Positions 36,553 through 41,609 of a stretch of DNA of 64,000 nt are shown here, piece after piece. The notes under the pieces were generated by a model that saw only the letters and a program-made list of their open reading frames with translations, ran no database searches and was not told where the DNA came from. Position numbers and translations under genes: made by a program. Position 1 is the first letter of the stretch; each line of letters begins with the position of its first letter. The DNA is from Rhodovastum atsumiense. GTDB lineage: Bacteria > Pseudomonadota > Alphaproteobacteria > Acetobacterales > Acetobacteraceae. The DNA is taken from positions 124,001 through 188,000 of the forward strand of contig NZ_OW485603.1 in the NCBI RefSeq assembly GCF_937425535.1. Direction: 5' to 3'.

Positions 36553-37220
36553 GCGCCGCTTCTCATTTTCAGCAGGTCAGCGATCGCCTCGAAACGGTCC
36601 AGTGGGCTCCATCGCGGCGCCAGCAGTCGGCGCTCGCAGAGCGGCGTGGTCGTCGTCCAGGGGCGTGTTGACACCAGCCAAAGCGGCCAGCGCAGCAGCA
36701 GGTCATCACGCTGTTGAACCTGCAAAGGCGTCAGGCCCAATATCACCTCGACCAGGAGAGGATCGGAGGCGGTCCGGATCAACATTACCAGCACGGCTTG
36801 CAGCTGGAGCTGCAGGTTGCGAGCCTCACGTGCCGGGGCGTCTTCTGCCGGCGGCAGTGGGCTGGCGATGATTGGAGGTGCGCCCGGCCGGAAACTGGCG
36901 AAGGCGAATGGTTCACCGGCGACTTGGGCGCACGTATCCGGCTGCTGCGCAATCTCGCAGGCCCGAACGACGGCTTCCGGCGACAGACCGTGCGCTTTTG
37001 CCGACCGCTCCACCCCGATCGCGCGTGTTGAAGCCTGGAGCAAGCGGAGGAAGATCTCGTTCAGATCGGCCACGAGGTCGAAGGTGTCGGCATCGGGCTC
37101 CGTGGCGTCATCATCCTGGATACGGCAACCAAGCGACCTGGTCCGACTCAGGAGAGTCCGTGGATAATTCAGCTCCTCTTGTGTCTCAATCTGGCGCTTG
37201 GGGACTGGGCGGTTTCTCAT
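36549..37220 (-). CDS. FlhD-like partner of the FlhC-like activator (tentative)
   Basis: A 223-residue protein sandwiched between the transglycosylase and flhC-like genes with 4-bp overlaps on both sides. Residues about 50-110 (DLVADLNEIFLRLLQAS ... AQVAGEPFAFASFRP) resemble FlhD (DINLSYLLLAQRL ... LAETNQLVCHFRF). A second, similar helical unit lies at about 145-190 (LQLQLQAVLVMLI ... LTPLQVQQRDDLLLRWPLWLVSTRP), so it may be a tandem FlhD-like protein, about twice the usual length. Similarity is weak but gene order with FlhC supports it. Confidence 0.5.
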   Translation of the reverse strand: MRNRPVPKRQIETQEELNYPRTLLSRTRSLGCRIQDDDATEPDADTFDLVADLNEIFLRLLQASTRAIGVERSAKAHGLSPEAVVRACEIAQQPDTCAQVAGEPFAFASFRPGAPPIIASPLPPAEDAPAREARNLQLQLQAVLVMLIRTASDPLLVEVILGLTPLQVQQRDDLLLRWPLWLVSTRPWTTTTPLCERRLLAPRWSPLDRFEAIADLLKMRSGA

Positions 37221-37795
37221 GTCAGGCGCTCCCGGCGACGCAGCGAGGCCACGCCGACCAAACGCAAGTACAGTTGCCAGACCGCCGTGCCGTACCAGCG
37301 TGCCCGCCACGGCGTCCAGGAATGGTAGCGGCCGAGCCCCATCAGGAAATCCTGTGGTGCGGAGCGGAGTGCGTGACCAAGGATCTGCCCGCCCACCAGA
37401 ACGTTCGTCGTCGGATCAAGGAGGTCGGCCGCCCGGGTGACCCGGTGATGATGCGCCGCCCAATTGACCTGCATCAGGCCGATATCGACGTTCATGCTCG
37501 TGGCAATGCCAGCCAGCTGGCGCTCCGCCTCGTCGCGGCTGCGCGCCCGCACATCACGGCCAGCATACCCAAGCGTCCAGGGATACGGCGCCATCCGCCC
37601 GCGGCCGTCGCTGAGCCCGGATTCAAACAGGGCAATGGCGTAGACCAGCAGCGGATCCTCGACACCTGCCCGCCTGGCGGCCTCTGCCCAGACCGTATCT
37701 CGGAAATCGAGCTGGCTGTGCTCATCCGCGGCATAGGCGCCACCACGGGGCGTCAGGCACGCGGGGAGCAGCAGCAGAAGCGATCGACGTTTCAT
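37217..37795 (-). CDS. VirB1-like lytic transglycosylase
   Basis: A 192-residue exported protein: N-terminal signal (about 4-22), then an SLT domain with ALFESGLS (catalytic Glu58), MNVDIGLMQVNW and the C-terminal LMGLGRYHSW. It cuts peptidoglycan to open a path for the envelope-spanning channel, like F orf169 and VirB1. It is the first gene of the minus-strand tra operon and overlaps the flhD-like gene by 4 bp. Confidence 0.9.
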   Translation of the reverse strand: MKRRSLLLLLPACLTPRGGAYAADEHSQLDFRDTVWAEAARRAGVEDPLLVYAIALFESGLSDGRGRMAPYPWTLGYAGRDVRARSRDEAERQLAGIATSMNVDIGLMQVNWAAHHHRVTRAADLLDPTTNVLVGGQILGHALRSAPQDFLMGLGRYHSWTPWRARWYGTAVWQLYLRLVGVASLRRRERLT

Positions 37796-38392
37796 GCATC
37801 CGGTCGCCCGTTGTGGTTTTGCAACGCTACTGTGACAAAGCGTGCGCGCAGGCCAGTACTTTTTTCGTGTGCCGTTGAAAGCGACTGAGCATCTTGTCGG
37901 CCACGGGGTAAAAAATGCACACGGCCAGCTAATTCCTGGCACCTGAATCAAACAATACTCATCAAAATGATGCTGCACCGGCAGGTGATGACCAACGATC
38001 GGATCCGCGCGGCCAAGAGTCACCGCTATTAACAAACGATAACAAAATGCGGGCGGAGCCCTTTTTAATTCGAGTCTGATCCGACCCAAACTTCGGGAAA
38101 CACCGTGTCAAGCGTCTCAATTTCTCAACCCAGGCGGTGGCTCGTCTCAAAGCTGCCGCTGCCGAAAACAACCGGGAGTAGATCATCACAAATTTGCTAT
38201 CGCCCTGAATCGGCTGCCACAGCAAATTTGTCCTGGAAATTCCTTAGGGTACGGCTATAGGGTCGATCTCTCCTCGGAATGAGAGACGCGGCCACAGTTC
38301 TGCCTGCAATCGTAGATTGATCATTCGGGCTGCGCGCCACCGACGTGCGGCGCCGCATCGGTGGCAGTGACGACGTAAGGAGCGCAAGCAAG
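37796..38392. promoter_or_regulatory. Divergent promoter region of the tra operon
   Basis: About 600 bases with no supported gene between the head of the minus-strand tra operon and the plus-strand gene at 38393. It is AT-richer than its surroundings, especially 37850-38060, and must hold the tra promoter and presumably binding sites for the FlhDC-like regulators. No clear repeat matching an FlhDC box was found by eye. Confidence 0.5.
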
Positions 38393-38839: not shown

Positions 38840-38890
38840 AGGCGGCAACCAGCATCACACGAAAACGTGAGCTTAATGTAGCTAATTCGT

Positions 38891-38923
38891 AAAGAAAGAA
38901 CCCGCCGCTGAGGAAGCGGCGGG
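38891..38923 (-). terminator. Intrinsic terminator on the minus strand in the repC leader
   Basis: CCCGCCGCT and AGCGGCGGG form a perfect 9-bp stem with a 5-base loop (38901-38923); read on minus it is followed by TTCTTTCTTT. The plus strand has no U-tract after the stem, so termination acts only against the minus transcript, as for the antisense RNA of repABC plasmids. Confidence 0.8.
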
Positions 38924-38990
38924 CGCGCACACAAAGAGCACCAGTAGATACGAAATCTTTCCGAGATTCGGGTCGCATGTTTTGTGCGGG
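38891..38990 (-). ncRNA. Probable antisense counter-transcribed RNA of repC
   Basis: The minus-strand terminator lies about 140 bp upstream of the repC start with no minus-strand gene feeding into it, the position of the ctRNA (incA) of repABC plasmids. The 5' end is not determined, so the extent upstream of the stem is approximate; no confident promoter was assigned. Confidence 0.45.
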
Positions 38991-39042
38991 ATTGCAACGT
39001 TAAAGTTGCAGATGCCCTCGCTCGCCCATTCCTCAGCGGTGG
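38902..39042 (+). promoter_or_regulatory. repC leader with two competing RNA structures
   Basis: In the repC mRNA, CCGCCGCTGAGG (38902-38913) forms the 5' arm and loop of the hairpin at 38901-38923, but it is also complementary to CCTCAGCGGTGG (39031-39042) over 12 bases with one G-U pair. The second partner ends about 12 bases before the repC ribosome site (CGGAG, 39053-39057). Pairing by the antisense RNA would shift the balance between the two folds, as in repABC copy-number control. Confidence 0.65.
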
Positions 39043-39064
39043 TCCCCCTTCACGGAGATCACTT

Positions 39065-39113
39065 ATGGCACATACCGTATCGACTTCGCGACAAACGGGA
39101 CTTCGCCGTCTCA
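39065..39113 (+). pseudogene. repC: repC 5' fragment, cut off by IS630
   Basis: ATG at 39065 (GGAG 8 bp upstream) opens MAHTVSTSRQTGLRRL and runs into the IS630 element. Removing the element with one copy of TCA rejoins the frame to T-VPMLAAM, giving the RepC-type N-terminal RRLT..ML motif. The native protein would be 455 residues. Confidence 0.85.
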
Positions 39114-40287
39114 TACCAACCGCCCTAAATTTTGACCGATGCCCAGGCACGCTGAGTGATGGACTTGATGGTGTCTGGGGTAGCCATCAGAAAGTTCCAG
39201 GCATCCAGGCAAGCGACCAGGATGGCGTTGTAGCTGTTCCATACGCGCAGACTGAGCTTGTTGGCCCGCAGATATTCCCAGACGTTCTCCATCGGGTTCA
39301 ATTCCGGCGCGTAGGCTGGCAGGCGCAGCAGGCTGATGTTGTCGGGCACAGGCAGGCGTTGGCTGGGCTGGTGCCATCCGGCCCCGTCACAGACCAACAC
39401 AGCGTGCGCGCCGGGTGCCACCTGCCGGCTGATCTCGATCAGATGCTCGGCCATGGCTTCGCTGTTGACCGCCGGCATGATGATCGCGGCACCAACAGCC
39501 CGTTCGGGGCAGATGGCACCGAACAGGTAGGCAGAATCATGACGATTATCGCGTACCGCCCCCGGACGCGAACCACGCGGCGCCCAAACGTAGGTCAGCG
39601 TACCTTGCTGTCCGACCCTGGCTTCATCCTGAAACCAGATCTCGATCGGCTTGTCGGTAGCACCCGGTGGCAGCGCCGCGGTTACCAGGTCGGCAAAGTT
39701 TTTTTGAAAGCCTCCTGGGCATCAGCATCCTTCTTGGGATGGCAAGGCCGTGGCTTCAGGGGCACCAGATCCAGCCGATGCAACAACTTGCTGACCGTAC
39801 GCTCATGGATGTCCACGTCGTAGCGCGTGGCGATCTGCTGGCGGAGGTCAACGCAGCGCCAACGAACTACGCCGTCGCGCTCCGGGTCTGGACCCGCCAC
39901 CACCAACGCTTTCAGCTCCTGCATCTGTTCGGCCGTCAGCACAGGTGGCCGGCCTTCGCGCGGTTGGTCTGCCAGTCCGGCAATCCCCTCCGCATTATAG
40001 CGGTGTACCCAATCCCGCAGCGTCTGCCGGTCCATCCCGCCGGCCGCCGCCGCCTCGGCCCGCGAAGCGCCTTCCAGAACCATCGCAAGGGCCAGCAAGC
40101 GACACGACACACGCCCATCCCGCGTGCGCGATGCCTCGCGCCGCAGGTCAGCCGCATCAAACTCCCGCCGCGTGATCGTCACCGCCCGGCCCATGTCCCC
40201 TCCCGTCATTTGACCCGACAACCAGAGTGAACCGAACCAGCGCCAGTCCGAAACTCACATAAGAGTCAACACTTTGGGCGGCTGGTA
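39114..40287 (-). mobile_element. IS630-family insertion sequence (copy 1)
   Basis: About 1.17 kb with inverted ends TACCAACCGCCC and TACCAGCCGCCC. It is flanked on both sides by TCA (39111-39113, 40288-40290). It sits inside codon 17 of repC. Related to copy 2 at 53192-54367 but clearly diverged. Confidence 0.9.
39125..40194 (-). CDS. IS630 transposase, made by -1 frameshift
   Basis: Two frames. The first (40194 to 39682) encodes the helix-turn-helix domains (LLALAMVLEGASRAEAAAAG, DRQTLRDWVHRYN). The second encodes the DDE domain (IEIWFQDEARVGQ, VLVCDGAGWH, NPMENVW). They join at a run of seven A (39700-39706): reading back one base turns FKKTLPTW into FKKNFADLV and continues the domain. 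The ATG at 40194 has a GGGAGG site. Programmed -1 frameshifting is known for IS630 members. Confidence 0.9.
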
Positions 40288-40292
40288 TCACC

Positions 40293-41609
40293 GTGCCAAT
40301 GCTGGCGGCTATGTCCCCTGCCGGCCAGAAGCAACGTCTTTCACCAGAGACATCGCCGCAGACGATCACGCCCGGCAAGGCGCTGGCAGCCTTCAAGGCG
40401 GCAGCACCGTTCCTCGGTTTTCCTTCGCGCATTGTCCATGGCATCGACTGGCTGTTCCGATTCACGCAGTCGCAGGACTGGACCGGGGATTACGACCCAA
40501 TCGTCTGGCCATCCGCCGCATTGCAGCAGCACGATCTGGATTTGGGGCGGACCCAGGTCAAGACACTCAATCGCCGGATGGCGGAGCTTGGCCTGATTGA
40601 AATGCGGGACTCCCCGAATGGCCGCCGGTATGGCCATCGGGACAAAGAGACCGGGGCAATTGTCGAAGCCTATGGATTCTGCCTCGCTCCCCTCCGCCGT
40701 AGATACGCGGAGTTCCTCGAAGTTGCTGCAGCCGGCAAGGCCGCCAGAGCCCAACTGAAGGCCTTGCGGCGCCGCGTCAGCATCGCTCGTCGAGATTTCC
40801 GGCAAGTTCTTGGTGCCTGCGGAGAGATGAAGCTTCACTCAGATGAATGGCAGCACTTTGAAGAGACGCATAGGGCGTGTCTGACGGCATGCGCTGGAAT
40901 CGAGATCCCAGAGTCGCTGCTTCCACGCGTCCTCAAGCTGGAGGAAAATCTGCAATGTGCCCGCGATCGTCTCCAGGCAGGCCGGGCGGCTTTGGCCCGT
41001 GCGGCTCACCCTGTGAATCCCATGGAAACAGGCCCCGAGGGGCCAGAATACCGGCCCCACCAATATACCTACAAATCAGATCTTGATCGTGAAAACGATA
41101 CAGTAGCAGCTGCGGGGCGCGAGGACTCGGCATCATCGGCGCTGGCGTTGCCGACGGCGACACCAGCGCCGATGACAACGCCTCGAGTGCCGACGGCGCT
41201 CATGATGGGCGCCAGGGACAAAACCGCCGTTCACGACGGCGCAGGCTCAGGACCGACCGCGATGGATCAACCAGAGCCGACATTGCGGATCCACCCGGAC
41301 GAGTTGCTCAGCCTCGCCCCTCGCCTGCGGACCTATGTTCTTTCCAATGATCCGGGTTGGCCGGAGATTGTCGACGCTGCCGGCCACATGCGGCGTGATC
41401 TCGGCATCGATCACCACCTTTGGGGCAAGGCCTGCCTTACCATGGGACGTCACGGAGCCGCAGTTGCACTGGCCATCGTCTCCACCAAGCCGCGTGGCTA
41501 CTTCCGCTCTTCCGCCGCGGGATACTTCTTCGGGATGGTCGCCAAGGCAAAGGCAGGAAAACTCAACCTCCCCAGTTCCATCTGGGGCTTGCGGAAGACC
41601 CGCCAATGA
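40293..41609 (+). CDS. repC: Plasmid replication initiator RepC (main part)
   Basis: The 438-residue remainder of RepC after the IS630. Family features: WLFRFTQSQDWTGDYDPIVWPS, LGRTQVKTLNRRMAELGLIEM, RDSPNGRRYGHRD and EAYGFCLAPLRRRY in the winged-helix half; a coiled region (about 170-235); a Pro/Thr-rich linker; and the C-terminal domain ending GYFFGMVAKAKAGKLNLPSSIWGL. Only 17 N-terminal residues are separated, so translation from GTG 40293 or ATG 40299 might still give a nearly complete protein, but no good ribosome site is seen. No repA or repB adjoins it. Confidence 0.88.
   Translation: MPMLAAMSPAGQKQRLSPETSPQTITPGKALAAFKAAAPFLGFPSRIVHGIDWLFRFTQSQDWTGDYDPIVWPSAALQQHDLDLGRTQVKTLNRRMAELGLIEMRDSPNGRRYGHRDKETGAIVEAYGFCLAPLRRRYAEFLEVAAAGKAARAQLKALRRRVSIARRDFRQVLGACGEMKLHSDEWQHFEETHRACLTACAGIEIPESLLPRVLKLEENLQCARDRLQAGRAALARAAHPVNPMETGPEGPEYRPHQYTYKSDLDRENDTVAAAGREDSASSALALPTATPAPMTTPRVPTALMMGARDKTAVHDGAGSGPTAMDQPEPTLRIHPDELLSLAPRLRTYVLSNDPGWPEIVDAAGHMRRDLGIDHHLWGKACLTMGRHGAAVALAIVSTKPRGYFRSSAAGYFFGMVAKAKAGKLNLPSSIWGLRKTRQ

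Follow-up and report, generated by a model that had tools for sequence, protein, structure and literature searches.

The locus and its genomic setting

The window, by which we mean the whole stretch of 64,000 nucleotides that was analysed, lies on a contig of 199,245 bases (C3) in a Rhodovastum atsumiense genome of 7.42 Mb and nine contigs. It carries the only RP-C gene found in a search of the whole genome. The RepC initiator domains (PF03428 and PF11800) are present and the repA/repB operon is absent: neither gene lies upstream of repC, and no RepA- or RepB-like gene was found on the whole of C3 at an E value of 0.01 with five query proteins. An earlier note on this DNA, made from the sequence alone, was right in describing a repC with no repA or repB beside it. 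C3 has a ParA-like gene about 107 kb from repC and also encodes a 691-aa protein with a ParB domain. Adjoining repC on the opposite strand are a transglycosylase gene (37217-38089, PF01464) and a VirB2-like gene. The features of the leader and of the gene are as follows, in window coordinates.

About 38890-38899, minus strand: T-rich tail of hairpin T1, reading TCTTTCTTTA on the minus strand (terminator scan)
38900-38924, minus strand: T1, a hairpin resembling an intrinsic terminator and the putative 3' end of an antisense RNA (terminator scan; similar hairpins in relatives)
38902-38915, plus strand: 5' arm and loop of T1, the 5' side of a competing 14-bp helix, CCGCCGCTGAGGAA
38992-39011, plus strand: hairpin TTGCAAC..GTTGCAG, at the place of the relatives' conserved inner hairpin P3 (relatives' alignment)
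39029-39042, plus strand: segment before the ribosome-binding site (RBS), the 3' side of the competing helix, TTCCTCAGCGGTGG
39039-39062, plus strand: GUGGUC..GAUCAC, an alternative hairpin that covers the Shine-Dalgarno region (seen in folds that enforce T1 or lack the 5' part)
39052-39057, plus strand: putative repC Shine-Dalgarno sequence ACGGAG (folds and coordinates)
39065-39113, plus strand: 5' fragment of repC, MAHTVSTSRQTGLRRL plus one base (relatives' GLRRLTPAML motif; joined flanks in frame)
39114-40287, minus strand: IS630-like element (DDE_3 and HTH domains; TCA repeats at 39111-39113 and 40288-40290)
40291-41609, plus strand: the rest of repC, an open frame from GTG 40293 without a stop (RP-C and RP-C_C domains)

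A minus-strand terminator and a competing helix

T1, 141-165 bases upstream of the repC start codon, comprises ten pairs, eight of them G-C, and a loop of five; the terminator scan found none on the plus strand of the window leader. This agrees with the minus-only terminator of the earlier note, which had also proposed that the 5' arm can pair over 12 bases with a segment just before the ribosome site. That pairing holds and extends to 14 contiguous pairs, 13 Watson-Crick and one G-U (38902-38915 with 39029-39042). When the whole region was dinucleotide-shuffled, 5 of 2000 versions reached 14 pairs; none of 2000 did when shuffling was confined to the 45 bases that precede the start codon. Pairings of at least 12 occurred in 9 of 500 shuffled regions. 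The duplex of terminator and pre-RBS segment is computed at -43.3 kcal/mol, compared with a shuffle minimum of -36.2 (n = 1000). Folding of 38880-39070 on both strands, which the note had proposed as a check, gave on each strand a better structure than all 200 shuffles (z = -5.16 for the plus and -5.25 for the minus strand, which are not independent tests, as the strands share the same inverted repeats).

The hairpin at 39039-39062 shares bases with the 3' strand of the competing helix. The Shine-Dalgarno region of the window leader had almost the same predicted accessibility in the free fold (0.47) as in the 'ctRNA-bound' one (0.45), and across 63 leaders, the window's included, it was lower in 10 and higher in 8, with no general change. 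A simple translation switch, in which the Shine-Dalgarno sequence is sequestered, is therefore unsupported by folding. No Rfam family matched in the window at its threshold, ctRNA_p42d and the S-element (RF00489, RF00490) included, and weak suhB and ar14 matches were dropped as far below their gathering scores.

Interruption of repC by an IS630-like element

The repC start is ATG 39065, and the gene is split after codon 16 by the IS630-like element. When the element and one TCA are removed in silico, the two halves join as one stop-free frame, and across the junction the sequence GLRRL-T agrees with the GLRRLTPAML of relatives. Downstream of the element the frame (40293-41609) has its conserved residues intact and no stop, and matches RP-C (PF03428, 8e-50) and RP-C_C (PF11800, 1.5e-22).

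Elsewhere in the genome the element has two identical copies and one 94% copy (C1:3767454, C1:126032 and C4:129871), counting complete copies only. With the one in repC these make four, each of them between matching 3-bp repeats, which are TCA in repC and TGA elsewhere. The usual target duplication of the IS630 family is TA. A TA duplication was rejected for this element, as in a derivation by hand it gives the wrong repC frame, whereas the 3-bp repeat restores an open one. Misassembly at the element was judged unlikely from the assembled sequence, because the target repeats match and the repC frame is restored. The element encodes its transposase in two frames, with an A7 run near 39705, an arrangement that suggests programmed frameshifting.

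No intact repC thus stands under the leader, which no longer drives full RepC. The earlier note overlooked this insertion, which severs repC from its leader, as well as the absence of a consensus antisense promoter. The separation of the switch from its gene is the more unusual fact at this locus, and it offers a natural test of how a plasmid initiator gene fares once separated from its copy-number switch.

Lone repC genes and their leaders among relatives

The nearest annotated relatives (best 17 matches) are repC genes of Acidiphilium and related plasmids, mostly lone and 40-48% identical. Our first protein scan of genome contigs for relatives' loci gave none and a second, alignment-based one gave 30; viral contigs held no repC relatives. 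A RepA- or RepB-like gene was detected beside repC, with the five query proteins, at 13 of 76 loci, some of the 13 being duplicates of one another and most whole-genome loci offering about 1.5 kb of upstream sequence. Among annotated neighbourhoods, repA and repB are present at pACRY01 (L044) and absent at eight others with upstream genes in view; at a further locus (L036) the record starts there and the upstream genes are out of view. Four of the eight have a ParA-family gene nearby, outside a repABC operon. A lone repC next to lytic transglycosylase and VirB2-like genes on the opposite strand also occurs in Methylorubrum pMPPM04 and in an Acidithiobacillus plasmid. In a Defluviicoccus record (L038) repC is annotated in two pieces; the other records viewed have it in one. 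Lone repC is the common case in this clade.

Acidiphilium-type RepC is also found outside the Alphaproteobacteria, on plasmids recorded from Acidithiobacillus ferrooxidans (L043, CP084173.1; H6, CP084174.1), which reflects either transfer or a mixed culture. Contigs with alphaproteobacterial-type repC are binned in metagenome assemblies as Bacteroidetes, Acidobacteriota, Actinomycetes and Opitutaceae (L112, L117, L128 and L130), labels that are probably binning errors.

Merging 13 identical leaders and setting aside one locus without a usable start (L123) reduced the 76 loci of relatives to 63 unique leaders including the window's, and thus to 62 relatives. A minus-strand terminator (at least six G-C pairs and at least five T in eight) lies between -240 and -120 before repC in 40 of these 62, and a plus-strand one at the same position in two; 20 rounds of shuffling gave a mean of 0.25 and a maximum of 1. 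The repC starts that set these positions were chosen by script, and some may be wrong, clearly so in L038 and possibly in weak relatives. The strict terminator search was negative in 21 of the 63 leaders, several of which (such as L018, L037 and L041) have the same hairpin with a weaker T run.

Thirteen leaders could be aligned: ten without a RepB-like match, the pACRY01 leader of repABC type, and a further two with only a weak RepB-like match (L011, L012). They share one consensus consisting of the terminator hairpin, a long-range helix that joins the pre-RBS segment to the bases immediately 3' of the terminator, the inner hairpin, and a hairpin in the Shine-Dalgarno region, with changes on both sides in 15 of 36 pairs. 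A covariance model of these 13 relatives (R1) recovers 12 further loci, duplicates merged, at 87 bits or more, none of which was used in building it. This conserved leader RNA is common to lone repC and repABC loci of Acetobacteraceae and relatives (L003, L014, L018, L037, L042, L044, L112, L135 and others), and at one repABC locus (L120) it occurs twice in tandem between repB and repC (2308-2509 and 2664-2865; R1 scores 43 and 87.6 bits). Minus-strand promoters scoring 9 of 12 were found in 15 of the 63 leaders compared with about two expected from shuffles, and several leaders have an internal one, such as TTGGCA-17-TATGTT; these counts cover all 63 leaders and not the group-A list, which was hand-chosen. 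In an Rfam test of 14 loci, matches to ctRNA_p42d and the S-element came from a rhizobial repABC control (L076) alone. Since a second rhizobial repABC locus (L075) had no match either, the lack of an Rfam match is no proof that a ctRNA is absent. The leader RNA that R1 describes is one that the Rfam search does not recognise.

The window leader differs from this pattern in three respects: R1 scores 1.4 bits in it, which is no match; its minus strand has no consensus sigma-70 promoter, the best candidate matching 6 of 12; and the partner of its pre-RBS segment is the T1 arm itself, whereas in most relatives it is the stretch just 3' of the terminator. By these sequence features it is a divergent version of the relatives' leader. 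For the conservation of the competing stems, on which the earlier note had staked its proposal, the answer is accordingly divided, in that the position and strand of the terminator are kept among relatives and the pairing of T1 arm and pre-RBS segment is the window's own version. The search for the same leader in other repC plasmids, which the note had recommended, recovered the minus-strand terminator; the leader has no DNA-level relatives in the plasmid collection.

Interpretation of the locus

We consider it probable that this is the ctRNA-type leader of a lone-repC plasmid of the Acetobacteraceae/Acidiphilium type, severed from its gene by an insertion sequence. Ancestrally, we infer, a short RNA from the minus strand, terminated at 38900-38924, would have paired with the repC leader. 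When that RNA was absent, the terminator-arm sequence would pair with the pre-RBS segment; when it was present, the segment would be released and leader expression blocked, so that RepC would be limited. Neither the folds, which show no general change in ribosome-site accessibility, nor the terminator scan, which found none on the plus strand of the leader, points to a blocking step. The IS630-like element has since entered after codon 16. Whatever control the leader exerts now falls on a 252-aa fusion whose end lies within the element, and the remaining 438 repC codons are uncoupled from the leader. The contig may be replicated by an initiator outside the families that were searched, or by a truncated RepC.

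The latter alternative treats the insertion as a gain: an N-truncated RepC, started at GTG 40293 or ATG 40299 from a promoter in or near the element and free of antisense control, would replicate the plasmid, perhaps at higher copy number. We regard it as unlikely, although the downstream frame is stop-free with its conserved residues intact, and no other RP-C gene exists in the genome, where RPA occurs on contig C2 only and not on C3 and Rep_3 is not found at all. The other initiators sought were those of four families (RPA, Rep_3, TrfA and Replicase), and for TrfA and Replicase the lack of matches is uninformative, as the positive controls were equally silent. No consensus promoter was found in 39900-40400. 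In p42d, the repC frame alone suffices for replication when given a promoter and a Shine-Dalgarno sequence, but repC without codons 2-14 gave no transconjugants (PMC3155836); by analogy, the deletion suggests a loss of activity in the beheaded repC of the window, though in this clade the N-terminal stretch ahead of RRLT is poorly conserved. An extension of the same idea, in which the plasmid lives on an N-truncated RepC expressed from within the element and the antisense RNA of the orphan leader acts only in trans on incoming plasmids with the same leader, is highly improbable.

The leader might instead have decayed, with its antisense promoter lost and its hairpins left as relics of an active ctRNA locus. 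The unrecognisable minus promoter, the failure of R1 and the interrupted gene are all consistent with this; against it, the terminator and the 14-bp complement are near perfect, the fold is far better than those of shuffles, and the element looks recent, two further genomic copies being identical to it, which leaves little time for decay. We think such decay improbable. A locus with no antisense system, whose hairpin ends a leftward transcript and whose pairing arose by chance in G+C-rich DNA, could draw on the shuffled regions that reach 12 pairs or more; the like position and strand bias of the terminators in 40 of the 62 relatives and the duplex energy below the shuffle minimum make it very hard to credit.

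Comparison with known systems

Work on pRmeGR4a reportedly lies behind the description of antisense RNA in the repC family. According to PMC10194956, an antisense RNA negatively regulates repC in this family, so that a lone repC under antisense control counts as an established plasmid type. The missing repA and repB, presented in the earlier note as surprising, are thus expected of this type, and the leader layout is ordinary among relatives of this repC. The note's repABC-style reading stands in so far as the layout fits ctRNA-controlled repC leaders; nothing need have been borrowed from repABC, because lone repC with antisense RNA is a known type and common in the clade. Antisense-style lone-repC replicons are common in Acetobacteraceae and relatives, and in the openly available literature we found no paper joining ctRNA, repC and Acetobacteraceae.

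Like the repC modules of pRmeGR4a and pSmeLPU88b described in PMC10194956, the window has a lone repC with a putative antisense gene in the leader (predicted or shown in theirs) and no repA/repB operon. Unlike the pRmeGR4a type, compared here by its description, the window repC is cut by an insertion sequence and has no recognisable antisense promoter. The repABC p42d type (control L076) shares with the window a minus-strand terminator and a ctRNA target complementary to an element over the repC ribosome site, the target in L076 being able to pair with the S-element at -35.2 kcal/mol; the window differs in having neither adjoining repA/repB nor an Rfam match. The pairing of its pre-RBS segment with the T1 arm is closer to L076 than to most relatives. 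The closest RepC proteins are those of the Acidiphilium-type lone-repC plasmids (pACMV4, pACRY04, pACMV1 and others), which share the minus terminator, the inner hairpin and a pre-RBS helix with the window; theirs mostly joins the pre-RBS segment to bases lying 3' of the terminator, and in several of them a minus promoter can be recognised.
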